Shown: one piece after another, positions 3,034 through 29,805 of the stretch
Position numbering within the stretch: position 1 is the stretch's first letter
Layout: every line of letters starts with the position of its first letter
NCBI GenBank assembly: GCA_014058405.1
Contig: CP047423.1
Coordinates: 1,798,001 to 1,862,000, forward strand
Origin: Candidatus Nitrospira kreftii
GTDB lineage: Bacteria; Nitrospirota; Nitrospiria; Nitrospirales; Nitrospiraceae
DNA: 64,000 nt
Direction of reading: 5' to 3'
Notes under the pieces: model-generated
What the model was told of the DNA's origin: nothing
Seen by the model: only the letters and a program-made list of their open reading frames with translations
Databases searched by the model: none
Translations under genes and position numbers: made by a program

Positions 3034-3990
3034 GTGGCACGATTATCTGATTTGATCCGAGAGCAAGCCTCTCATCCCCCGGGGAGTGGAGCGCGACCTC
3101 ACCATGCGGCCACCTCTTCTTTCCAACAAGCCGTTCGTGCTTGGGTCACTTCCACAAGGCAAGACATCATCCGGATCAAGGAGGCTATCTCATCCAACAA
3201 AGTCCCAGATGTCAAAATCTGCGCCATCTGCGCTGAGCAAGTGGTTCAACTGTTGCAGTATAGCGATGACGTTGTCGGATGGGCATTGAACGGGCAGACT
3301 GATGACTATCTGATCGACAATGCGCTGCACGTCGCAGTTCTAGCAACGAAGATTGGAATCGGTCTGCACTATCGAGAACAAGATCTAGAGCGCCTGGCAT
3401 TGTTGGGTTTGCTCCATGACATCGGCATGTGGACAGTCCCTGAGGGACTCGTCTCAAAACGAGGAGTCTTATCCGAAGAAGAGCGAGACATCATTCGTAC
3501 TCATCCCGAGCGAGGTCGCCGAATTCTTGCCGGACAGGGTGCTGTGTTTGAATGGCTTGGCGGCATTAGTGCACAAGAGCACGAACGATGGGATGGCAGC
3601 GGTTATCCCTGTCGGCTCAAAGGCACACAGATTGAGGAGGCTGCACAGATCATCGGAATTGTTGATACGTTGGATGCCATGGTAACGACACGGCCGTATC
3701 GTCACAGCATCTCACCTCATCAGGCCATGCGCGAGCTCCTCCTTCACGGCAGGACAACGTTTTCACTTCCCGTGTTAAAAGCCATAGGAGACCAGATCAC
3801 GCTGTATCCAGTCGGAACAGTCGTACGACTTAATACCGGAGAAACCGTGACGGTCACAAAAACGAATTCACGTTATCCACTCCGGCCTATTGTGACACTC
3901 ACCAAGTTCGGTGAGGTGAATGAGTTGGATTTATCACAAGGCATGTCACGGCACATCGTGGAAGTCTTGCACGGTAGGGCGGCATCGTAG
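3034..3990 (+). CDS. HD-GYP domain protein, probable cyclic-di-GMP phosphodiesterase
   Basis: A 318-aa protein starting at GTG 3034, with GAGGAG at 3017-3022. The HD-GYP domain spans roughly residues 85-250. It shows the metal-binding HD pair at 128-129 (LLHDIG) and a GYP signature around 182-192 (EHERWDGSGYP); the first His of the usual HHExxDGxGYP is Glu here. A small C-terminal beta-rich segment (about 260-310) is common in this group. There is no receiver domain, so the input is unknown. The family hydrolyses cyclic-di-GMP. It ends 10 nt before the first exopolysaccharide gene, which suggests cyclic-di-GMP control of that locus. Confidence 0.9.
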   Translation: MARLSDLIREQASHPPGSGARPHHAATSSFQQAVRAWVTSTRQDIIRIKEAISSNKVPDVKICAICAEQVVQLLQYSDDVVGWALNGQTDDYLIDNALHVAVLATKIGIGLHYREQDLERLALLGLLHDIGMWTVPEGLVSKRGVLSEEERDIIRTHPERGRRILAGQGAVFEWLGGISAQEHERWDGSGYPCRLKGTQIEEAAQIIGIVDTLDAMVTTRPYRHSISPHQAMRELLLHGRTTFSLPVLKAIGDQITLYPVGTVVRLNTGETVTVTKTNSRYPLRPIVTLTKFGEVNELDLSQGMSRHIVEVLHGRAAS

Positions 3991-18947: not shown

Positions 18948-19195
18948 GTACTTCTCGCAGATACAAGCGGTCTTGGAAGCGGATCCTACGCGGGTGGGCT
19001 GCGCTCCTCATTCTGTGTCTTATTGGCGCAGTGGCTGCGCTCGGCGTGCGAACACTCCTGGATTCGGTCGGAACGGCCAAGCACACACGATACGAGCCGG
19101 TGGACGTTCCACCGCAATCGGTATCGCCTCAACATGAGCGCGAGCGGCAAGAACTGGAACGCCGTGACCGTGCCGTGCGTGAGAAAGGCAAATAG
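18944..19195 (+). CDS. Small single-pass membrane protein of unknown function
   Basis: An 83-aa protein starting with ATGA over the previous stop. A basic N-terminus (MSTSRRYKRSWKRILRG) precedes one membrane helix (about 18-38), then a polar charged tail rich in Arg and Glu (HERERQELERRDRAVREKGK). Positive charge before the helix predicts N-in, C-out topology. No family is recognised. The tight overlap with its neighbour and the 4-nt gap to asnB argue that it is translated. It could be a scaffold or small partner of the assembly machinery, but nothing in the sequence proves this. Confidence 0.65.
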   Translation: MSTSRRYKRSWKRILRGWAALLILCLIGAVAALGVRTLLDSVGTAKHTRYEPVDVPPQSVSPQHERERQELERRDRAVREKGK

Positions 19196-19199
19196 CACC

Positions 19200-21131
19200 A
19201 TGTGTGGCATTTGCGGAATCATAGGTGAAGATGATGGCGACGTCCTTCAGCGAATGCTGCAGAGGCTAGTGCATCGTGGACCCGATGAAGAGGGTATCTA
19301 TCGTCAGCCTGGAGCCGCGCTTGGTGCAAGAAGACTGCGGGTCATCGATCCGGAGGGTGGGCACCAACCGGTTCACAACGAGAACAGAACTGTTTGGGCT
19401 GTCATGAACGGAGAAATCTATAACTACAGAGAATTGCGACGCGATCTCATGAGCAAAGGGCACCAGCTATCGACTCGCTCCGATACGGAAGTCTTAGTCC
19501 ACCTCTATGAAGAAGAAGGCTTCGAAGCATTTTGCCGATTACGAGGCATGTTTGCAGTTGCGCTGTGGGATCAGGAGCGTCGTATCGCATGGCTGATTCG
19601 TGATCGCCTTGGCATCAAGCCGCTGTATTATGCCATTCGTCCGAGTGAAGCGGGTGTGGGCACCCGCGTTGTCTTTTCCTCTGAAATTCCTTCGTTGCTC
19701 GAAGCCGTGCCGAATTGGCGACTTCGTCCAGAGAGCATCGCCGAATACGTGATGCAGTTGTACGTGCCAGGACCAGACACCACCATTGCTGGAGTCCACC
19801 AGTTACGTCCAGGCCAAGCCATGAAAATATCCGGCGGACAAGTGGAGTTGTTGCGCTACTACAGCCCAGACGACGATCTCCGTAGTAGCCAATCATGGAC
19901 CATCAACGAGACGGCCAAAGACGTATTACAGACGTTCGAAGAGACGGTGAACGCTCATCTCGTCAGCGACGTTCCATTAGGACTATTTCTCTCGGGCGGG
20001 CTCGACTCTGCATCCTTGTTGGCCATCATGGCGAAGAGCCAGAATGGTCCCATCAAGACCTTCTCGATCGGCTATGAACATCCTTCCGATCAATCTTTCA
20101 ACGAATTGGAGTCAGCGCGGTTTCTTGCAACGCATTTTAAGACGACCCATGTTGAGACAATCCTGAGGCCGGATGCCGTCTCTCTGATCAGCAAGGTCGT
20201 TGCGGGCATGGGTGAACCGTTCGCTGATGCATCGGCTATTCCCACCTACCTGGTATCTGAAGTTGCACGCCAAACCGTCACAGTGGCGCTATCCGGGATT
20301 GGCGGAGACGAACTGTTCGGCGGATATCCTCGATATCTGGGTCTTCGCACGGCCGCACACTATCAGTATCTCCCACAGAGAATCCGTGAACGAGTGGCCA
20401 CATGGAGCCATCATCTCTATGGACACGAAACCAGCCGCGATCAAGCCGGCCGTCTAAAACGATTCCTTCAAGACGGTCACCTCTCGCTTCAGGAGCAATA
20501 CCGGCGTTGGACCACGTTCATTCCGGCCGAATGGAGCGGGACTCTGTGGGGCGAGCGCTTGGAGGCGATGTTTGCCGGAGATCGACCCCTTGGACCGACA
20601 GATATGCTGTTCGACCAGTGGCCATCCTCCGATCCTGCGAGCTGTGCCATGGGTGTCGATCTCCAGAGTTATCTCCCTGATGATCTTCTACGCATGGCAG
20701 ATCGCATGAGCATGGTGCACTCGCTCGAACTTCGCGTCCCATTCTGCGACCATCGACTGCTCGCCGCCGCCCTGCGAATTCCCTCTCGAGTACGGTTTAC
20801 CGGTTGGCAGTTGAAGGGGTTCATGCGCCGAATGTTGCGAGGCCTGTTGCCGGATCAAATCCTTCGTGCTCCCAAGCAAGGTTTTATGGTGCCGATGGCT
20901 CGATGGCTTCGAGAGGACCTTCATGAGATGGTTCACGACCTTTTAGCGGATGATGTCATCAGAAAACGGGGCTACGTCAAACCGGCCTATGTCCGGTGGT
21001 TATTGGACGAGCATGAGAGCCGCCGCCGCAATTTTTCCGATCAATTGTACGCACTCATTGTGCTGGAACTCTGGCATCAAGGTCTGTCGGTGAGCGCATC
21101 CGACAGAACGACCGTGACGGCTATATCATGA
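19200..21131 (+). CDS. asnB: Asparagine synthetase-like glutamine amidotransferase
   Basis: A 643-aa protein with a class II glutaminase domain starting at the catalytic Cys2 (MCGICGIIGEDDG) and covering about 1-220. The AANH-type synthetase domain follows from about 240, with the PP-loop FLSGGLDSAS near 265 and GIGGDELFGGYPR near 366. Starting at ATG 19200 is required for the exposed Cys2. The family transfers glutamine nitrogen to a carboxylate. In polysaccharide loci AsnB-like proteins often amidate uronic acids or amino-acid substituents, which is the likely role here. It could also supply cellular asparagine. Confidence 0.9.
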   Translation: MCGICGIIGEDDGDVLQRMLQRLVHRGPDEEGIYRQPGAALGARRLRVIDPEGGHQPVHNENRTVWAVMNGEIYNYRELRRDLMSKGHQLSTRSDTEVLVHLYEEEGFEAFCRLRGMFAVALWDQERRIAWLIRDRLGIKPLYYAIRPSEAGVGTRVVFSSEIPSLLEAVPNWRLRPESIAEYVMQLYVPGPDTTIAGVHQLRPGQAMKISGGQVELLRYYSPDDDLRSSQSWTINETAKDVLQTFEETVNAHLVSDVPLGLFLSGGLDSASLLAIMAKSQNGPIKTFSIGYEHPSDQSFNELESARFLATHFKTTHVETILRPDAVSLISKVVAGMGEPFADASAIPTYLVSEVARQTVTVALSGIGGDELFGGYPRYLGLRTAAHYQYLPQRIRERVATWSHHLYGHETSRDQAGRLKRFLQDGHLSLQEQYRRWTTFIPAEWSGTLWGERLEAMFAGDRPLGPTDMLFDQWPSSDPASCAMGVDLQSYLPDDLLRMADRMSMVHSLELRVPFCDHRLLAAALRIPSRVRFTGWQLKGFMRRMLRGLLPDQILRAPKQGFMVPMARWLREDLHEMVHDLLADDVIRKRGYVKPAYVRWLLDEHESRRRNFSDQLYALIVLELWHQGLSVSASDRTTVTAIS

Positions 21132-22351
21132 ATGTGGTGTTGTTAGCAGATGTTTCAGCAGAACGGGTGATCGGTGGAGCGGAACGAGTCCTTCGCAATC
21201 AGGCGATTGGATTAGCGGCGCTTGGACATCATGTAGAGTTGTTGACGCGGGCTCCTGAGGCGGGATCACCAAGTATGATCGAAATGAATGGAATTCGTGA
21301 ATGGCGCTACCCGGTCAATCGCACGCATGAAGCTGCGTTTGTGTGGTCGTCGGTACGGCGTTCGGTCGAGGGCTTCGATCGCCTCCGCGCGACCGAACCT
21401 CTGGATGCCGTCATTATCCATCAAGCGATGGCCGGACTTGGACCAATTCTCGCTCGTCGTCATGCCGCCTCTCGATGGATCTATCTTTGCCATTCCCTCG
21501 CGCACGAAGAGTATGACATGAGAAACACCCCGGCCCAGTCGGCGATCGTGAACTTGCGCCGAGAAGCAAATATTCGAGCAAGGCGATCTGTCGAAGGTGC
21601 AGTGATGTCCAGATGCCATCGCGTGGTGGTCCTGAGCCAATTCATGCGTCAACGGGTCATGGCCGCGCACGGCATCTCAGCCGCTCGAATCGGATTGATC
21701 CCCGGAGCGGTTGACCCAGATTGTTTCAAACCTTCACTGCAACGCCAGGCAGCACGGGCAACCCTCAACTTGCCGAGCGACCGGACCATCCTTTTCACTG
21801 TTCGCAACCTCGTCCCACGAATGGGACTGGAGAACTTACTAAGCGCCCTTGAAATACTGATTCCCTCGCAGCCACGACTCCTGCTCGTCATTGGAGGAGA
21901 GGGTCCCTTGAGGGGGAGGCTTCAAGGGGTGATACGTCAAAAGAATTTGAGCGAGTCCGTACGCCTCGTCGGATTTGTACCTGAATGTACACTCGGCAAC
22001 TACTATCAGGCTTCTGATCTCGTCGTGATGCCGAGCCTCCAGCTTGAAGGCTTCGGACTGGTGATGGTCGAAGCACTCGCCTGCGGCACGCCCGTACTTG
22101 GAACACCGGTCGGAGCGATTCCGGAAGTCTTGAACCAGGTTGATCCCATTCTCGTCGCTCAAGGAACCGATGGCCAGTCGATCGCTCGAGCTCTTGAACG
22201 GGTGTTAGCGCGATTACATGATTCTGGTGAAGCCGCCCGTCTCGCAAATAAAGGACGCTCGCTCATTGAGAGACGCTACAACTGGACACAACATTGCAGC
22301 GAGCTTGCCAGAATGCTGGATGGCGGAATGTCGTCTCGGCTTGCAGCATAG
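21128..22351 (+). CDS. Glycosyltransferase family 4 (GT-B)
   Basis: A 407-aa GT4 enzyme starting at the ATGA overlap with asnB. VIGGAERVLRNQAIGLAALGHHVELLTR is a textbook first GT4 segment. The second domain has TILFTVRNLVPRMGLENLL near 220, LVIGGEGPLRG near 255 and LEGFGLVMVEALACGTPVLGT near 310-330. An Arg-rich stretch (NLRREANIRARRSVEG) near 142-157 may aid membrane association. Donor and acceptor are unknown. Confidence 0.9.
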   Translation: MNVVLLADVSAERVIGGAERVLRNQAIGLAALGHHVELLTRAPEAGSPSMIEMNGIREWRYPVNRTHEAAFVWSSVRRSVEGFDRLRATEPLDAVIIHQAMAGLGPILARRHAASRWIYLCHSLAHEEYDMRNTPAQSAIVNLRREANIRARRSVEGAVMSRCHRVVVLSQFMRQRVMAAHGISAARIGLIPGAVDPDCFKPSLQRQAARATLNLPSDRTILFTVRNLVPRMGLENLLSALEILIPSQPRLLLVIGGEGPLRGRLQGVIRQKNLSESVRLVGFVPECTLGNYYQASDLVVMPSLQLEGFGLVMVEALACGTPVLGTPVGAIPEVLNQVDPILVAQGTDGQSIARALERVLARLHDSGEAARLANKGRSLIERRYNWTQHCSELARMLDGGMSSRLAA

Positions 22352-22353
22352 GA

Positions 22354-23544
22354 ATGATGGCAATTCAGAAAGTGGTCCATATTATTACTCGGCTTGATCG
22401 GGGAGGCTCCGCTCGGAACACTATGCTCACGGCACTCGGGCATGATCGTTCGCATTTTGAGCCGGTTGTGATCACCGGAGAAACCGGGAGTTGGGACGCA
22501 CAAGGAGGGCACATAGCAACCATTGAGAACCTTCGGCTCTTAGAGAAAGAGTCGATTCGGCATCACATGGTGGCGTCGCTGGTTCGTCATATTAGCCCAC
22601 TGTCAGACCTAAGAGCACTGTGGCATCTGGTTCGGCTGTTGCAAGAGGAACGCCCACATATCGTGCACACGCACACGTCCAAAGCCGGAGTACTCGGGAG
22701 AGTCGCTGCATGGATCGCCGGAATTCCGGTCATTATCCATACTCCGCACGGTCACGTGTTTTACGGACATTTCAGTACCGTACCTTCATGGATATTTCTC
22801 CAGCTTGAGCGGGCCTTGGCATGGAAGACTGATCGGCTCATCGGACTTACATCCGCTGAAAAACAAGAACATCTTGAGCGAGGAGTTGGACAGGTCAATC
22901 GTTTCGCAGTCGTCGCAAGTGGGATCGATCTTGATCGTTTTCGAAAGGCTCGCGCGAACGGGAAGGTCATCCCTGATTGGTTTGAATGCCCCCCTCATGC
23001 ACAAATAATTGGTTCAGTCGGGTGGCTCACCGATATCAAAGGCCATCGGTTTTTAGTCGATGCCGTCGCTCTCCTGAGACAGACGCACCATAATCTACAC
23101 CTGGTGATTATCGGAACAGGCAACCAGCACGATAAGCTTCTTCGCCAAGCAGAGAATGCTGGAATCGGGCAGGCCGTACATCTACTCGGGCATCGAGAAG
23201 ATATCGAAGTGTGCTTGGCAGGCTTGGACTATTTTGTTTTGCCTTCGCTCAATGAAGGGATGGGGCGGGCCCTGATTGAGGCCATGGCCGCCGGACTTCC
23301 GGTCGTTGCCAGCCGAGTCGGTGGCATTCCCTCGTTTATCGAGGATGGGAAGAACGGCCTACTTGTTCCGGCTGGAGACAATTCGACATTAGCAAACGCG
23401 TTACGACGTCTCCTCGATGATCCGACATGGTCCCATGAATTAGGGATACGTGCCATGCGCAGTATTGGAACAAACTATGGCATTCCAGCCATGGTGCAGG
23501 CCATCGAGTCAACCTATAGGGAAGCAGCCGCCGGTCATGCTTAG
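22354..23544 (+). CDS. Glycosyltransferase family 4 (GT-B)
   Basis: A 396-aa GT4 enzyme. The start is one of two adjacent ATG codons (22354, 22357), with TAGGA overlapping the preceding stop. It carries the first strand VVHIITRLDRGGSARNTM, the acceptor-domain motif VHTHTSKAGVLGRVAAWIAG, and a C-terminal SLNEGMGRALIEAMAAGLPVVAS donor-site region. The THTSKAG and HTPHGH motifs resemble enzymes using N-acetylated sugars early in repeat-unit synthesis. Its 3' end overlaps the next gene by 8 bp. Confidence 0.9.
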   Translation: MMAIQKVVHIITRLDRGGSARNTMLTALGHDRSHFEPVVITGETGSWDAQGGHIATIENLRLLEKESIRHHMVASLVRHISPLSDLRALWHLVRLLQEERPHIVHTHTSKAGVLGRVAAWIAGIPVIIHTPHGHVFYGHFSTVPSWIFLQLERALAWKTDRLIGLTSAEKQEHLERGVGQVNRFAVVASGIDLDRFRKARANGKVIPDWFECPPHAQIIGSVGWLTDIKGHRFLVDAVALLRQTHHNLHLVIIGTGNQHDKLLRQAENAGIGQAVHLLGHREDIEVCLAGLDYFVLPSLNEGMGRALIEAMAAGLPVVASRVGGIPSFIEDGKNGLLVPAGDNSTLANALRRLLDDPTWSHELGIRAMRSIGTNYGIPAMVQAIESTYREAAAGHA

Positions 23545-25105
23545 AGCAAGGTATGTCATGACATGTGTACTGTGGGCCGGAGCGATGTCCCTCACCTCCG
23601 TCGCAACCGGTTCCGCCACAATGCCGGCACGAGAGCCTTTATCTCTACGGGCTGCCATTCATGTACACAGTACGATGAGTACGGGCATGCTGAATTTAGA
23701 ATCCTTGGCCAGGCGAGCCGAACAGCAGCAGTTAGATGTCCTCATTCTCTCGGAGAACTTTACTCTGCGATATGACTATGGCGTTCACCCATTGGAAGGA
23801 TTTTTGAAGCACCAGGTTACATTCCCATCCATCATGGAATATGGCATCCAACGATTCCTTGACGAGATTCAGGCGGTTCAACAACGTCATCCGAATCTGA
23901 TGATCATCCCTGGGGTGGAGGTCGCTCCTCACTACTATTGGACAGGCTCGCTTCTGCAAGGCAATCTCACCATGCACAATGCGCAGCGCAATCTCTTGGT
24001 GATCGGACTGGAGAAGGCAGAGGATTATGCACGGCTTCCTGCACGTGGCAACTCCGGTTCTTTTGTGTGGAACTGGCAAAGTTTGGCCAATGGACTCCCG
24101 CTTCTCTTATTGGTCCCAATAGCCTGGCTACGGACGCATGACGGATCACGCCCATTAGAATCGGTAGGAGCTCGATCTCGTGTACGACAGGGTTGTGCGA
24201 TCATCCTTTTAGCCATATGTCTGGGACTCACGGTCAATGCCTGGCCCATCAAAATGCCTGTGTATGATTCCCATGACGCCAATATTGGGTACAGACCCTA
24301 TCAGGACCTCATTGATAAGGCGGTTGAACGTGGCGCGTTGGTGTTTTGGTCGATGACGGAAGCTCGAGATTTCAGTCAACACTCGTTTGGGCCCCTAGGG
24401 ACGGTCACGATTAAGACCGAGCCTCATCCTGAGGCACTAGTGTTGACGCGGAACTACACTGGATTCGGCGGATTATACCAAGACGTCAGGCGGGTCGTGG
24501 CTCCAGGGGGGGTGTGGGACCAACTGCTTCAATCAAAGATGACAACCGCTCAAGCAGCATGCCCGACAATAATCGGAGAAGTGGCTTTCCATGGAACTTC
24601 GGATGCGGGAAAAGATCTCGATCAAGTGTACACCGTCATCCAAGCTGTCGATCGCACGAGAGCGAGTGTCATGGATGGAATCCGGACCGGCCGAGCCTAT
24701 GCCGTAGCGAGAGGAGACCAGAATATCCTGCTCCAACTCGATGAGTTTCTGGTGTCGAACCAGGATACTTCAGCGATGATCGGTGAGACTCTTCAGGGAA
24801 GCGCGATCGGCGACATCCTCGTGCATGTTCGACTTTCAACCGTTGATGGCCAATCTCACCCGACAATGCTCCGTGTCATTCGATCGGGTCAGGTCATCAG
24901 GCAAATCGAAGGCCATACTCCCATGCAGCTTGATCTAGTCGATCGTGAAGCGAAGTCTGGAGAGTGGCTGAATTATCGGGTGGAGGCGCTCGGCACGAGC
25001 GGGGAATTGTTGACTAACCCGATTTATGTCGCCCCGCGAGCCGGCACACCTGCGAGCACGGCTCAAGGAGTGCGCCGTAATTCAGGAAACGCGATCAAAA
25101 CGTAA
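23537..25105 (+). CDS. Exported PHP-domain phosphoesterase-like protein with internal membrane hairpin
   Basis: A 522-aa protein with an N-terminal signal peptide or anchor (about 1-28). A PHP-type metal site follows: HVHS near 39, a downstream SENF, and PGVEV near 127. The domain is interrupted by two hydrophobic segments, LANGLPLLLLVPIAWL (about 182-197) and CAIILLAICLGLTVNAW (about 218-234), joined by a short basic loop. Catalytic-type residues resume after the insertion (MTEARDF). The predicted layout is periplasmic-membrane-hairpin-periplasmic. PHP enzymes include phosphotyrosine phosphatases acting on BY-kinases (CpsB/Wzb type), so a link to the Wzc-like kinase is possible but unproven. 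The start at 23537 overlaps the previous gene by 8 bp. Confidence 0.72.
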   Translation: MLRARYVMTCVLWAGAMSLTSVATGSATMPAREPLSLRAAIHVHSTMSTGMLNLESLARRAEQQQLDVLILSENFTLRYDYGVHPLEGFLKHQVTFPSIMEYGIQRFLDEIQAVQQRHPNLMIIPGVEVAPHYYWTGSLLQGNLTMHNAQRNLLVIGLEKAEDYARLPARGNSGSFVWNWQSLANGLPLLLLVPIAWLRTHDGSRPLESVGARSRVRQGCAIILLAICLGLTVNAWPIKMPVYDSHDANIGYRPYQDLIDKAVERGALVFWSMTEARDFSQHSFGPLGTVTIKTEPHPEALVLTRNYTGFGGLYQDVRRVVAPGGVWDQLLQSKMTTAQAACPTIIGEVAFHGTSDAGKDLDQVYTVIQAVDRTRASVMDGIRTGRAYAVARGDQNILLQLDEFLVSNQDTSAMIGETLQGSAIGDILVHVRLSTVDGQSHPTMLRVIRSGQVIRQIEGHTPMQLDLVDREAKSGEWLNYRVEALGTSGELLTNPIYVAPRAGTPASTAQGVRRNSGNAIKT

Positions 25106-25123: not shown

Positions 25124-25831
25124 ATGCGCGTAACCATCCACCAACCGCAATTCATGCCCTGGCTAGGGTATCTCGACAAGATCGATCAATCCGATCTCTT
25201 TCTTCTATTGGATACCGTGCAATTCAAGAAGCACGAATGGCAAAATCGCAATCGTATTCGTAGCTCTCAAGGATGGCAATGGCTCACCGTTCCTGTCCTT
25301 CACCAGTTCGGTCAGCGCATCGATGATGTTCTGATTAATCCCACCACCGCATGGAGAGCTCAACATCTCCGTGCCCTAGAACTGCATTATGCTCGAGCTC
25401 CTTATCGTGACCACTATTTGCCTCAATTACGCGAGCTCTACTCCACAGCATGGATCAACCTTTGCGATCTCAACAAGGCCACGGTGCAATGGCTGCTTAA
25501 GGCATATGGGATCAACACACCCGTTCGTTGTGCATCCGAATATCTCGCTCGTGAGGAACCAACGGATCGTTTGATCGATCTTTGTCGAGCAGTCGGCGCC
25601 ACACAGTATCTCGCAGGACCTGGTGCAGAGCACTACATGGATCGAGTGCGTTTTCAGGCCGCCGGAATACGATTAGAGATACAAGCATTCCATCACCCAA
25701 TCTATCGACAAATCTATGAGCCGTTCGAGCCGAATCTCTCCGCTCTTGATCTCTTATTCATGCAAGGGCTCCAGGCGCGGGTGACACTGCGCTATGCGCG
25801 AACGATCAAGTCTTGCGTGACAACTGTCTAG
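25124..25831 (+). CDS. WbqC-like family protein
   Basis: A 235-aa protein beginning with the family hallmark IHQPQFMPWLGYLDKI, then DTVQFKKHEWQNRNRIRSSQGWQWLTVPV, a strong match to the WbqC family (PF08889). These proteins sit in O-antigen and exopolysaccharide loci and are thought to modify an amino group on a sugar, though the chemistry is poorly defined. It is cytosolic, with no signal peptide or membrane segment. Eleven nucleotides separate it from the PIG-L gene, whose AGGAGG overlaps the end of this frame. With the PIG-L and DegT proteins it forms an apparent amino-sugar module. Confidence 0.92.
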   Translation: MRVTIHQPQFMPWLGYLDKIDQSDLFLLLDTVQFKKHEWQNRNRIRSSQGWQWLTVPVLHQFGQRIDDVLINPTTAWRAQHLRALELHYARAPYRDHYLPQLRELYSTAWINLCDLNKATVQWLLKAYGINTPVRCASEYLAREEPTDRLIDLCRAVGATQYLAGPGAEHYMDRVRFQAAGIRLEIQAFHHPIYRQIYEPFEPNLSALDLLFMQGLQARVTLRYARTIKSCVTTV

Positions 25832-25842
25832 GAGGATTTTGC

Positions 25843-26490
25843 ATGATGGCCATCAACACCAAGGAACCGATGCGCATTCTCGCCCTGGGAGCCCATCCGG
25901 ACGATATTGAAGTCGGATGTGGAGGGACATTGATCAAATATGCAGAGAATGGCCATCGCATTTTCCTGATGGTGATGACTCAAGGCGGTGCGGGAGGGAA
26001 TACGGCGGTTCGAAAACAGGAGCAAGAGCGGTCAGCCAAATTGCTCCAAGCCGAGGAAGTGTTTTGGGGCGGGTATCAGGATACCGAGGTTCCACTCGGG
26101 CGCGATTTGATTCAGACAGTGGAAGAGATTGTTCGAAAAATTGAGCCTCATTTCATCTTTGTGCATTATCATGATGATACCCATCAAGATCACCGGCATC
26201 TGGCTATGAGCACGATTACCGCCACGCGATACACCAAAAACGTGCTGTTTTACGAAGGCCCGACGACCCAAAATTTTGCTCCGACGGTGTTCGTGGATAT
26301 CCAACAAGCGTTGGATCGAAAGATTCAATCGTTGGAAGCACACGCATCCCAAATCAGAAAGACCAATATCGAGGGGCTGAGCATTGCCGATCTGGTGAGA
26401 TCCTCGGCGCATTTTCGAGGGATTCAAGGCCGAGTGAGAACAGCCGAAGGCTTTCTCCCTCTGCGATTGTTTATCAACATCGGAATTTGA
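25843..26490 (+). CDS. PIG-L family sugar N-deacetylase
   Basis: A 215-aa metal-dependent deacetylase of the LmbE/PIG-L family. The zinc motif AHPDD is at about 17-21 (ALGAHPDDIEVGCGG) and the second metal site is in HYHDDTHQDHRHLA near 111-124. Members remove N-acetyl groups from GlcNAc-containing substrates. ATG 25843 follows a strong AGGAGG (25830-25835). Set between WbqC and a sugar aminotransferase, it probably frees an amino group on a nucleotide sugar or lipid-linked sugar before re-acylation; this is inferred from context. Confidence 0.92.
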   Translation: MMAINTKEPMRILALGAHPDDIEVGCGGTLIKYAENGHRIFLMVMTQGGAGGNTAVRKQEQERSAKLLQAEEVFWGGYQDTEVPLGRDLIQTVEEIVRKIEPHFIFVHYHDDTHQDHRHLAMSTITATRYTKNVLFYEGPTTQNFAPTVFVDIQQALDRKIQSLEAHASQIRKTNIEGLSIADLVRSSAHFRGIQGRVRTAEGFLPLRLFINIGI

Positions 26491-26504
26491 TCGCCAGGGC
26501 AACG

Positions 26505-27566
26505 ATGATTCCACATTCACGACCTTCTATCGAAGCAGCCGACGTTCGCGCGGTAACGGAGGTACTGCGATCGCGCCGGATTGCTCAGGGAGGGGTCGTA
26601 GAACGGTTTGAGCATGGTATGGCAGCCTATTTGGGGCTGTCCGGGGGCGTCGCAGTCACGTCCGGAACGGCTGCGCTGGAAGTCGCCCTCCGGGCGTTGG
26701 GCATAGGATCCGGCGATGAGGTGCTCTTGCCTAGCTATGTTTGCGCCGCACCTTTGTTGGCCATTCAGCGTGTGGGGGCTATACCGCGACTAGTCGACAT
26801 CGATCTCGGCACTTTCAATATCGATCCATCGGCAGCGCGCCAGGCCATCACATCAAAGACTAAGGCCATCATCGTGCCACATCTGTTTGGTCTTTCCGCC
26901 GACCTCACCGAACTTGAAGCATTGGGCGTGCCCATCATCGAAGACTGCGCGCAAACGTTAGGCGCAACGGAGCAGGGAAGACGCGCGGGATCCATCGGCA
27001 TACTGACGGTCTGCTCATTCTATGTTACCAAACTGCTCTGCGCTGGCGAGGGAGGCATGGTGCTGTCGAGAGATGAGAGCTTGCTGGAACGAGTGCGCCG
27101 GTTGAGAGAGTATGACGAAACCCCATCTCTCCATCCTGGGTCGACAAACTTGAAAATGACTGACCTCCACGCTGCAATTGGTTTGGCGCAACTGGAACGT
27201 CTTGAATCATTCCTTGAACGCCGGAAATGGCTTGCCGAAGAATACCGAGCAGCACTGAGCGGCGTCGGCCTGGTGGTACCAACCGTGCCAACAGGGTACA
27301 CGCACATCTACTATCGATTTGTCGTACGTCTCCCAGATCTTGCGTCCAAAGCGGACGGACTTCAGGACATCATCAGGCGCTTTGAGGCACGAGGGATCCA
27401 ATGCCGAAAGCCGGTATTTCGCTCGCTCCATCGCTATCTCGAGTTGGACGGGTTCCCTTTTGCCGAAGATGCAGAACGGACCGCACTCTCCATTCCACTG
27501 TTCCCGGCGCTTACAGATGAGGATGCGGCTCAAATTCTCCAGGCCTTGCGTTCGGAGTGGTCATGA
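26505..27566 (+). CDS. DegT/DnrJ/EryC1/StrS sugar aminotransferase
   Basis: A 353-aa PLP-dependent aminotransferase. It begins MIPHSRPSIEAAD, the usual family start, which favours ATG 26505 over a TTG at 26487. SGTAALEVALRALG near 53-66 binds the cofactor phosphate, IIEDCAQTLGA near 144-154 contains the family's Asp, and Lys176 in VTKLLCAGEGG is the expected Schiff-base lysine. The family aminates keto-sugar nucleotides to amino sugars. No dedicated dehydratase is in the locus, so the keto-sugar must come from elsewhere. Confidence 0.9.
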   Translation: MIPHSRPSIEAADVRAVTEVLRSRRIAQGGVVERFEHGMAAYLGLSGGVAVTSGTAALEVALRALGIGSGDEVLLPSYVCAAPLLAIQRVGAIPRLVDIDLGTFNIDPSAARQAITSKTKAIIVPHLFGLSADLTELEALGVPIIEDCAQTLGATEQGRRAGSIGILTVCSFYVTKLLCAGEGGMVLSRDESLLERVRRLREYDETPSLHPGSTNLKMTDLHAAIGLAQLERLESFLERRKWLAEEYRAALSGVGLVVPTVPTGYTHIYYRFVVRLPDLASKADGLQDIIRRFEARGIQCRKPVFRSLHRYLELDGFPFAEDAERTALSIPLFPALTDEDAAQILQALRSEWS

Positions 27567-28729
27567 AGGCCGTTGAACCAGAACTGACGATTCCTTTCTC
27601 AGTGACCACATGGCGCTGGATTACGCCGGTGGTGTTTGGTGCGGCGCTTGGAGCGATCGCGCTTGCGATCCCTCCGGTTCATGAAATCTTTCAGCTCGAA
27701 GGTCTGCGATGGCTGCATGTCTTCCTCTTCGCGTTTCTTGGCACAGGAGCAGTGACACCCTTAATGGTCAGGATCGGCCATCAGTGGAACCTTGTCGATA
27801 TTCCGGCTGATCGCAAGATCCACGTCCTCCCGACTCCACGGATCGGCGGTGTTGCGTTATATGCAGGCTTCGTCGGGTCGCTCTTGCTCAACTCCATCGT
27901 CCCCGACTGGATGATCGCTATTCTGGTAGCCGGTTCTCTTCTTCTCGTTATCGGAGTACTTGACGATATTCGAGAATTGCCAGCCTCTGGAAAACTGATC
28001 GGACAATTGCTGGCCGCTGGCATCGTGATCGCCTCGGGGAAAGTCCTCACGCTCTTTCCACCGGGACCGCTCGGGGAAGTCGCGAACATGCTGCTCACAC
28101 TGTTCTGGATCGTCGGAATCACGAATGCATTCAATTTCTTTGATGGGATGGACGGATTGGCCGCCGGCCTGGCCATTCTGCTCGCCGGATTTCTGGGTGT
28201 GGTCGCATTCGAAACCAATCAAGCAGAACTGGGATGGCTCGCAATTGGCATGATTGGCGCCGGTCTTGGCTTTCTGCCGTACAATTTTCGAGGGAGAAAA
28301 CCTGCCGTCATTTTTTTGGGTGATGGCGGCTCGACCTTCATTGGATTTACGTTGGCCTGTTTGGCTATTAAAGGCAATTGGGCGGATTCCAGCCCCATCG
28401 TGTCCTTCAGCAATCCCTTACTGATCTTCGGCGTGCTCATCTATGACATGATTCACATCACCGTGGAGCGCGTGGCCACCGGGAAAGTCCGATCCGTGAA
28501 GGAATGGCTGGATTATGTCGGCAAGGACCATCTGCACCACCGATTGGAACGAGCGCTTGGATCGCGTCAGGCCAGTGTCGCCATGATTTTTCTCTTCACG
28601 ATTTGCCTTGGGCTGTCCGCACTGGCACTCCGCCACGCCAGCACCATGGAAGCCGTACTTCTGCTCATTCAGGCTGGGTTAATTGCCGCAATGCTCACTG
28701 TCTTGGAAATCAGCGGTCGCCGCCGATAG
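27563..28729 (+). CDS. Undecaprenyl-phosphate sugar-1-phosphate transferase (WecA/TagO/MraY superfamily)
   Basis: A 388-aa polytopic transferase that starts repeat-unit synthesis by moving a HexNAc-1-phosphate from UDP to undecaprenyl phosphate. Family motifs are in order: DRKIHVLPTPRIGG (about 76-89), DDIRELP (about 133), NAFNFFDGMDGLAAG (about 189-203), GDGGSTFIGF (about 253) and the C-terminal HLHHRL loop (about 322-327). ATG 27563 overlaps the DegT stop (ATGA). No WbaP/PglC-type initiator is visible in the locus, so this is the probable first enzyme of the pathway although it is encoded last. Confidence 0.94.
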   Translation: MKAVEPELTIPFSVTTWRWITPVVFGAALGAIALAIPPVHEIFQLEGLRWLHVFLFAFLGTGAVTPLMVRIGHQWNLVDIPADRKIHVLPTPRIGGVALYAGFVGSLLLNSIVPDWMIAILVAGSLLLVIGVLDDIRELPASGKLIGQLLAAGIVIASGKVLTLFPPGPLGEVANMLLTLFWIVGITNAFNFFDGMDGLAAGLAILLAGFLGVVAFETNQAELGWLAIGMIGAGLGFLPYNFRGRKPAVIFLGDGGSTFIGFTLACLAIKGNWADSSPIVSFSNPLLIFGVLIYDMIHITVERVATGKVRSVKEWLDYVGKDHLHHRLERALGSRQASVAMIFLFTICLGLSALALRHASTMEAVLLLIQAGLIAAMLTVLEISGRRR

Positions 28730-28770: not shown

Positions 28771-29805
28771 ATGGTTCCCACGGTTGAATGGAAAAACGGC
28801 GCAGTTCGTCTGCTTGACCAAAGCCGACTTCCCGGATCAGTTGAATTTCTTGATTGCCATGACTACCTGACCGTTGCGGATGCGATACGTACCTTGAAAG
28901 TTCGAGGAGCTCCAGCGATTGGAGTCACGGCAGCCATGGGAGTCGCATTAGGGGCACAAGCGGTGAGTGCAACGGAGTATTCCTCGTTTGCTCAGGCCGT
29001 GCTCAAAATTTGCGATGAGCTGGCGGCGACAAGGCCGACCGCCGTCAATCTCTTCTGGGCCATTGAGCGAATGAAGCGAACGCTGCAATCTTTGGACACT
29101 CATTCAATATCATCCATACAACAGGCGCTCATAAGAGAATCTCAAGCGATACTTGAAGAAGATATCACTCTCTGCAAGACTATGGGGCGCCATGGAGCTG
29201 AGTTGATCAAGGATGGGCAGACAGTACTGACTCACTGCAACGCCGGGTCGCTTGCCACGGCCGGTTATGGAACCGCACTTGGAGTCATCCGTGCTGCATG
29301 TGAACAAGGTAAGAACATCAAGGTGATTGCTGATGAAACTCGTCCAGTACTTCAAGGTTCACGGCTTACCGCATGGGAGCTTATGCAAGATCAAATTCCA
29401 GTGACGTTGATCACAGACAACATGGCCGGGTCGCTCATGAGACAAGGGAAGATACATCTCTGTATCGTCGGAGCAGATCGCATTGCTGCGAACGGGGATG
29501 TGGCCAACAAAATCGGCACCTATTCCGTGGCAGTCTTGGCGAGAGTCCATAATATTCCCTTCTATGTCGCAGCTCCTTATTCCACTATTGATCTCAAAAC
29601 AACATCCGGAGACGACATTCCGATTGAACAGCGAAATCCTCTCGAAGTGACCACCATGCACGGCAGCCACCAAGTCGCACCAAAAGATGTCGCAGTCTAC
29701 AATCCTGCCTTTGATGTGACCCCAGCAGAGCTCATTACTGGCATTATCACCGAGCGCGGCGTCTTCAAGCCGAATGAGCTCGCGTCGAAGTTTGGATCGA
29801 AGTAG
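28771..29805 (+). CDS. mtnA: S-methyl-5-thioribose-1-phosphate isomerase
   Basis: A 344-aa enzyme of the methionine salvage pathway that isomerises methylthioribose-1-phosphate to methylthioribulose-1-phosphate in the cytosol. Family marks are [13 protein letters not shown] near 45-57, the catalytic-cysteine segment [18 protein letters not shown] near 152-169, [18 protein letters not shown] near 188-205 and the catalytic Asp in [17 protein letters not shown] near 233. Full length for MtnA. It lies 41 nt after the exopolysaccharide locus and is unrelated to it in function. The Shine-Dalgarno sequence is weak (AGAAG). Confidence 0.95.

Follow-up and report, generated by a model that had tools for sequence, protein, structure and literature searches.

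Introduction

The metal site of PHP domains is described by nine ligands with the consensus H H D/H H E H C/H D/N H, and where a ligand is replaced, Arg is the commonest substitute and may stand in for the charge of the metal (Barros et al., PMC3666897). The same paper reports that the PHP domain of E. coli Pol III alpha, in which five ligands are replaced, does not bind metal, and it tabulates PHP ligands of Geobacillus PolC that jump from E405 to H620. For a carbaryl hydrolase of the CehA/McbA kind from Pseudomonas sp. C5pp, a location in the periplasm and activity on carbamate esters have been reported (PMC8292978); a PHP protein on that side of the membrane is thus in itself already known. 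CpsB, Cap8C, Wzb, and YwqE, which belong to capsule loci, are metal-dependent PHP tyrosine phosphatases with intact motifs (PMC10816263). Herein, we describe a gene for a membrane-hairpin PHP protein, mPHP, from Candidatus Nitrospira kreftii (assembly GCA_014058405.1, contig CP047423.1, positions 1,798,001 to 1,862,000 of the forward strand). This whole stretch of 64,000 nucleotides is called the window, and the coordinates of its features refer to it.

Like the CehA/McbA proteins (NF038032), mPHP has a PHP barrel followed by an Ig-like domain; unlike them, it carries an inserted hairpin and has five of the nine ligands replaced. Its best structural matches are TM0559 (2anu) and BVU_3505 (3e38). 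The alignment runs over nearly all of 2anu, in which the hairpin has no counterpart, and the motifs AAHP (2anu) and NHP and SDIH (3e38) are aligned with WSMT and EVAFH in mPHP. PolC likewise has a PHP domain with an insertion; that insert is an exonuclease and, to our knowledge, not a membrane hairpin. The PHP domain of Pol III alpha is a cytoplasmic polymerase domain that is not known to have a hairpin. As in mPHP, its fold has been kept despite the loss of five ligands (PMC3666897), but the set of ligands lost is a different one. The phosphatases of capsule loci share with mPHP the PHP fold and the polysaccharide context; the full metal motifs and cytosolic single-domain build of the BY-kinase phosphatases (CpsB/YwqE) are absent from mPHP, and the accessible part of PMC10816263 does not describe a hairpin or an Ig-like domain for CpsB, Cap8C, Wzb, or YwqE. 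A literature search, with subscription papers outside its coverage, found no description of the mPHP family among the papers listed.

A conserved membrane hairpin splits the PHP domain

A preliminary description of the window, made from the letters alone, had noted an open reading frame with the motifs HVHS and PGVEV and, after them, two hydrophobic segments joined by a basic loop, and all of these elements are present. It had also proposed that the domain folds across the hairpin. An AlphaFold2 model of mPHP built on 31 orthologues (mean pLDDT 79.1, pTM 0.79) contained helices at residues 187–200 and 210–235. Residues 34–396 of this model were aligned to TM0559 with a Z of 21.8 and an rmsd of 2.8 over 211 of 221 residues, and to BVU_3505 with a Z of 19.7, whereas residues 396–502 were aligned to Ig-like folds. 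A profile of 15 mPHP members also matched 2anu by sequence (E 7.8e-6), and together the structural and profile matches identify a PHP (alpha/beta)7 barrel. According to the model, the parts before and after the hairpin fold into a single PHP domain, as had been proposed, and they would therefore lie on the same membrane face.

Pfam PF02811 scored 21.3 bits with mPHP (E 3.6e-4), below its gathering score of 26.4, and was matched by all 31 orthologues at E 0.01 or better. NF038032, the model for the CehA/McbA layout of a PHP barrel and a C-terminal Ig-like domain, which mPHP shares, gave 53.5 bits, below the curated cut-off of 80, with a best stretch (residues 349–498) that covers the end of the model. 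All 31 members of the orthologue alignment matched it (best E 5e-21); five other hairpin members scored 28.8–64.1 bits, and L151, a relative without the hairpin, passed with 82.7.

For comparison across the family, 71 homologues were aligned: 49 rows of the Nitrospira type, two intermediate rows (Nitrospirota), and 20 distant rows from the phylum of the genome that holds locus L060. The 49 are rows rather than independent species, as some genomes are present through two collections; L025 and L102 were identical in the tree, and L010 and L038 nearly so. Partial or stop-bearing sequences (L027, L028, L029, L030, and L063) and duplicates were left out of the orthologue alignment; L062 is also partial. 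Both hydrophobic segments occurred in all 71 homologues, at a site in the barrel between the strand of N152 (ligand position 6) and that of M273 (position 7). The net charge of the loop between them was greater than that of both flanks in 70 of the 71 (48/49 Nitrospira-type, 2/2 intermediate, and 20/20 distant), and in distant members the turn is basic and only five or six residues long (RRRKR, for example). The window sequence by itself makes a weak case, since 83 of 2000 shuffles of residues 153–270 reached its segment-pair score; it is the family-wide conservation that places the pair beyond chance. No such pair was found in three canonical PHP relatives without the hairpin (L104, L151, and L152), in which the weaker segment scored −0.33, 0.85, and 0.76, compared with 1.81 in the window protein. 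The membrane hairpin that splits the PHP domain is a real and conserved architecture.

The N-terminus is hydrophobic, and 41 of 51 rows had an n-region with a net positive charge. Together with the charge pattern around the hairpin, this fits an out-in-out topology in which the PHP domain is probably in the periplasm, a prediction consistent with the earlier proposal that both halves face that side.

Lineages have lost different parts of the metal site

The canonical ligands were mapped by motif to residues 42, 44, 49, 74, 128, 152, 273, 350, and 352. The Nitrospira-type rows have H, H, T (47) or S (2), N, E, N, M (47) or L (2), A (47), V (1), or G (1), and H at these positions. The same four ligands, H42, H44, E128, and H352, were thus kept in 49/49 rows, and positions 3, 4, 6, 7, and 8 were replaced in every one of them. 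Two further Nitrospirota proteins (L150 and L153) had the same ligand pattern. The two intermediate rows read H, Q/D, T/G, H, E, H, H, D, and a gap, with six of nine ligands kept, and the 20 distant rows, called type C, read D, R, D, H, E, H, H, D, and H, with seven kept in 20/20. Type C has lost exactly the HxH of positions 1 and 2, which is D-x-R in every row (L129–L148; for example, L131 7175–8956). The Arg at position 2 recalls the remark on Arg replacement by Barros et al. E128 is the sole canonical ligand invariant in 71/71 rows, and none of the hairpin members examined had all nine ligands. In a tree computed without the ligand and hairpin columns, each lineage formed one side of a branch, and the replacements are therefore fixed rather than noise.

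In three hairpin-less relatives (L104, L151, and L152), the automatic alignment put the AHP motif in the wrong place, and the HP motifs were located by visual inspection; at ligand position 6, L151 and L152 carry Tyr.

These patterns do not support the intact metal phosphoesterase suggested by the preliminary description, given the five ligands replaced throughout the Nitrospira type. The catalytic-type residues that it placed after the hairpin are present in part: His352 is kept, whereas the His of the AHP motif is Met273 and the Asp of SDxH is Ala350. Conservation of the metal residues holds within the clade for H42, H44, E128, and H352; it fails at the other five positions, and family-wide only E128 remains.

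A further acidic residue, E348, goes together with H42: each of the 51 rows that have H42 carries Glu at position 348, and each of the 20 rows in which H42 is replaced by Asp carries Ala, Ile, Ser, or Cys there. Since few evolutionary events underlie this association, it is only a lead.

Both barrel halves are under strong purifying selection

The ratio dN/dS was calculated against two close relatives, and the two values are given in that order. The whole mPHP gene gave 0.246 and 0.172. The first PHP part (residues 36–171) gave 0.078 and 0.104 and the second 0.054 and 0.105, compared with 1.09 and 0.30 for the hairpin region and 0.38 and 0.25 for the Ig-like part. Purifying selection on both PHP halves is strong, indicating that the barrel is kept for a function. 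Residues invariant in 71/71 rows were G50, G103, E128, W135, G157, W271, T294, W327, D328, G385, G451, R481, N494, and P495. Tryptophans are common sugar-stacking residues, and their conservation here suits the polysaccharide context of the gene.

mPHP belongs to a conserved polysaccharide gene cassette

The gene order around mPHP is AsnB, GT4, GT4, mPHP, WbqC, PIG-L, DegT, and Glycos_transf_4 (Table 1). The first 8 bases of mPHP (23537–23544) are also the last of the upstream GT4 gene, an overlap that suggests translational coupling of the two. mPHP is the sole full copy in the single-contig genome of 4.13 Mb. The window as a whole holds a full Wzx/Wzy-like exopolysaccharide region, with SLBB export, chain-length/kinase, O-antigen-ligase-like, and flippase-like genes as well as glycosyltransferases.

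Table 1. Features of mPHP and its cassette, with positions in the window
Feature	Position	Strand	Basis or remark
Asparagine-synthase-like amidotransferase (AsnB)	19023..21131	+	Coordinates of the listed ORF; the true start lies inside it
GT4 glycosyltransferase	21128..22351	+	Family match, cassette loci
GT4 glycosyltransferase, directly upstream of mPHP	22294..23544	+	ORF as listed
Membrane-hairpin PHP protein (mPHP)	23537..25105	+	522 aa, ATG start common to orthologues
N-terminal signal peptide or signal anchor, residues 1–30	23537..23626	+	Hydrophobic N-terminus; predicted
PHP barrel, first part, residues 34–171	23636..24049	+	Structural model, dN/dS
HVHS, residues 42–45, ligand positions 1 and 2 (H42, H44)	23660..23671	+	Motif mapping
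PGVEV, residues 125–129, ligand position 5 (E128)	23909..23923	+	Motif mapping
Hydrophobic segment 1, residues 185–200	24089..24136	+	Hydrophobicity, model, homologues
Basic loop, residues 201–215, predicted cytoplasmic	24137..24181	+	Loop charge across homologues
Hydrophobic segment 2, residues 216–236	24182..24244	+	Hydrophobicity, model, homologues
PHP barrel, second part, residues 241–396	24257..24724	+	Structural alignment, dN/dS
WSMTEARD, residues 271–278, replaces canonical W-x-H-P; M273 for metal His	24347..24370	+	
GEVAFH, residues 347–352, replaces G-S-D-x-H; A350 for Asp, H352 kept, E348 new	24575..24592	+	
C-terminal Ig-like beta sandwich, residues 397–500	24725..25036	+	Structural model
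WbqC family protein	25124..25831	+	Family match, cassette loci
PIG-L deacetylase, BshB1-like	25813..26490	+	ORF as listed
DegT aminotransferase	26487..27566	+	Family match, cassette loci
Glycos_transf_4 (WecA/MraY-type) transferase	27557..28729	+	Family match, cassette loci

Orthologues, which the preliminary description had proposed to look for in other exopolysaccharide loci, do lie in such loci, and the cassette was found around them. Neighbours were counted with a distance rule in four sets of loci, namely loci in genome contigs (n = 31), the Nitrospirota loci L097–L103 (n = 7), distant loci (n = 20), and further loci (n = 3), and the counts are given in this order. WbqC was directly downstream of mPHP in 31/31, 7/7, 19/20, and 2/3 loci. 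The cassette also held PIG-L (30/31, 7/7, 19/20, and 2/3), DegT (29/31, 6/7, 19/20, and 2/3), and Glycos_transf_4 (27/31, 7/7, 19/20, and 2/3), several of the misses being contig ends, and the upstream GT4 was found in 29/31, 6/7, 12/20, and 3/3. The cassette is kept down to approximately 20–30% identity of the PHP protein; at the distant locus L131, WbqC, PIG-L, DegT, Glycos_transf_4, and Asn_synthase were confirmed by Pfam. It very probably builds an exopolysaccharide that contains an aminosugar. PIG-L was the most constrained of six genes compared, with dN/dS of 0.007 and 0.027.

The mPHP orthologues come nearly all from Nitrospira. The gene was found in 30 of 98 relatives, and a WbqC of 55% identity or more occurs in these 30 and in no others; in three other relatives, the WbqC matches were only weaker or partial (35%, 36%, and a 52% fragment). 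Among 33 mPHP loci in genome contigs, 32 were from Nitrospirota and one, L060, from a metagenome-assembled genome titled Gammaproteobacteria. Beyond Nitrospirota, the search covered the phylum of the L060 genome. One search for distant members gave matches in 43 of 398 genomes; 20 were fetched and all 20 were hairpin types, and several of the remaining 23 matched only through short stretches of generic PHP proteins. In another, 135 of 395 genomes matched, most through approximately 40–60 residues of other PHP proteins, and about 47 belonged to the mPHP family. A plasmid search with the mPHP protein gave no match.

Two genes near the cassette were also recorded. In many Nitrospira loci, the cassette is followed by an IF-2B/MtnA-like gene (28771–29805), though this gene is metabolic by family. 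An HD_5 domain protein (3034–3990) is encoded immediately upstream of the genes for export and chain length, which may point to a regulatory link.

Several described systems were compared with the cassette and set aside. A link to XrtA/PEP-CTERM was rejected: the only exosortase match of the genome is approximately 0.67 Mb from the locus, and the corresponding models scored below their cut-offs with the amidotransferase (516.8 of 816.9 bits) and GT4 (202.6 of 409 bits). The Zetaproteobacterial twisted-stalk cluster (sfz), as described in the accessible part of PMC8250860, is synthase-type and lacks the cassette genes. The operon with a PHP domain in the accessible part of the lipocone-domain paper (PMC12419801) is a different one.

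Possible resemblance of WbqC and PIG-L to enzymes of bacillithiol synthesis

BshC is the last enzyme of bacillithiol synthesis. It was the best structural match of a WbqC model (pLDDT 74.2), with a Z of 12.0 and an rmsd of 3.4 over 214 residues, and the next match had a Z of 8.3. By sequence, WbqC and BshC did not match up to E 10, and Foldseek returned nothing for the WbqC model at E 0.001. The N-terminal IHQP motif of WbqC is conserved in the loci listed, and PIG-L scored 108 bits with the BshB1 model, whose cut-off is 182.5. A literature search found no function for WbqC in its listing of 12 papers that contain the name. WbqC is possibly an amino-acid or acyl ligase, and it is a reasonable idea that PIG-L and WbqC form a BshB/BshC-like pair that would deacetylate and load a polymer sugar. 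A true bacillithiol pathway was rejected, as the genome has no PF10079 BshC.

Discussion

We tentatively favour, at a probability that we place close to even, the reading that mPHP is a membrane-tethered PHP-fold factor on the periplasmic face that handles the aminosugar polymer as it grows, the Nitrospira type probably acting without canonical multi-metal hydrolysis. The open reading frame, the hairpin throughout the family, the single PHP fold of the predicted structure, the cassette, the replaced ligands, and the purifying selection are shown; the periplasmic side, a glycan as the ligand, and the absence of canonical catalysis are inferred. In this mechanism, the signal sequence would export a CehA/McbA-like PHP barrel with its Ig-like domain, and the hairpin would enter the membrane, turn on the cytoplasmic side at its basic loop, and so keep the barrel fixed at the outer leaflet of the inner membrane. 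There, the barrel may hold or present a lipid-linked or nascent glycan; candidate contacts to it are the invariant W135, W271, W327, and D328. The Nitrospira type would bind at most one metal, at H42, H44, and E128, perhaps with E348. Several points weigh against this reading. The tryptophans are proposed as glycan contacts from conservation only; E348, two residues from A350, could supply a carboxylate to the remaining metal site 1; and type C, with its seven ligands, could comprise real hydrolases, so that a non-catalytic core need not hold throughout the family. In addition, the model is moderate, with a pLDDT of only 53 around residues 351–360, and at two loci, L129 and L150, mPHP has no WbqC behind it. 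At L150 (7624–12528), the cassette is rearranged, and AsnB and GT4 follow the hairpin PHP gene instead.

The main rival is a one-metal periplasmic hydrolase, possible but on balance unlikely, in which H42, H44, E128, and E348 (with H352) would cleave an ester, N-acyl, or carbamoyl group off the polymer or its lipid-linked precursor. All five residues are present in 49/49 Nitrospira-type rows, Glu at 348 goes with H42 and is never found in the 20 rows with Asp, both barrel halves are strongly constrained, and CehA/McbA proteins are esterases, at least one of them periplasmic (PMC8292978). However, the association of E348 with H42 amounts to very few events at the level of lineages, the positions that normally complete sites 2 and 3 are N152, M273, N74, and T49, and no one-metal PHP enzyme came up, although none was searched for. 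The phosphatase of the preliminary description, a canonical PHP enzyme acting outside the membrane on undecaprenyl (di)phosphate or polymer phosphate, is improbable. The PHP fold, the probable periplasmic side, and the adjacent WecA/MraY-type transferase, which would use polyprenyl phosphate, are in its favour. But five of nine ligands are replaced in 49/49 rows, as many as in the PHP domain of Pol III alpha, reported not to bind metal (PMC3666897), which makes the guess weak. Nor does location alone point to a phosphate substrate, as had been argued, because a CehA/McbA-kind hydrolase of carbamate esters is reported to be periplasmic as well (PMC8292978).

That the hydrophobic pair is a structural insertion of a soluble protein, or the domain cytoplasmic, so that there would be no periplasmic barrel, is scarcely more probable than the phosphatase. 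In its favour, the window protein has a short, weak segment 1, and 83 of 2000 shuffles reached the score of its pair, but the pair and its basic loop recur in 71/71 rows, down to the RRRKR-type turns, and the N-terminus is hydrophobic with a positive n-region in 41/51 rows. We strongly disfavour, as very improbable, a decaying or unimportant passenger gene: it is found in only 30 of 98 relatives and has lost ligands, yet its dN/dS is 0.17–0.25 overall and 0.05–0.11 in the PHP halves, and it co-occurs with the cassette.

A broader reading joins the glycan-handling role of mPHP to its neighbours. It combines a cross-phylum cassette, a non-catalytic glycan-holding core task of mPHP, and a bacillithiol-like PIG-L/WbqC pair, and we regard the whole combination as doubtful, somewhat less likely than the one-metal hydrolase. 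PIG-L (BshB1-like) would free the amine of an aminosugar of the polymer, and WbqC would load this amine with an amino acid or acyl group. If the core task is non-catalytic, sister lineages would be free to lose different parts of the metal site.

If the favoured reading is true, mPHP would be a clear case of a hydrolase fold that encloses a membrane hairpin and has been taken into service in polysaccharide assembly, its metal site dismantled differently from lineage to lineage while the fold, the hairpin, and the gene order persist. WbqC would then gain testable functions. The results also point to an undescribed exopolysaccharide cassette, with WbqC, PIG-L, and mPHP, that is common to Nitrospira and members of at least one other phylum.

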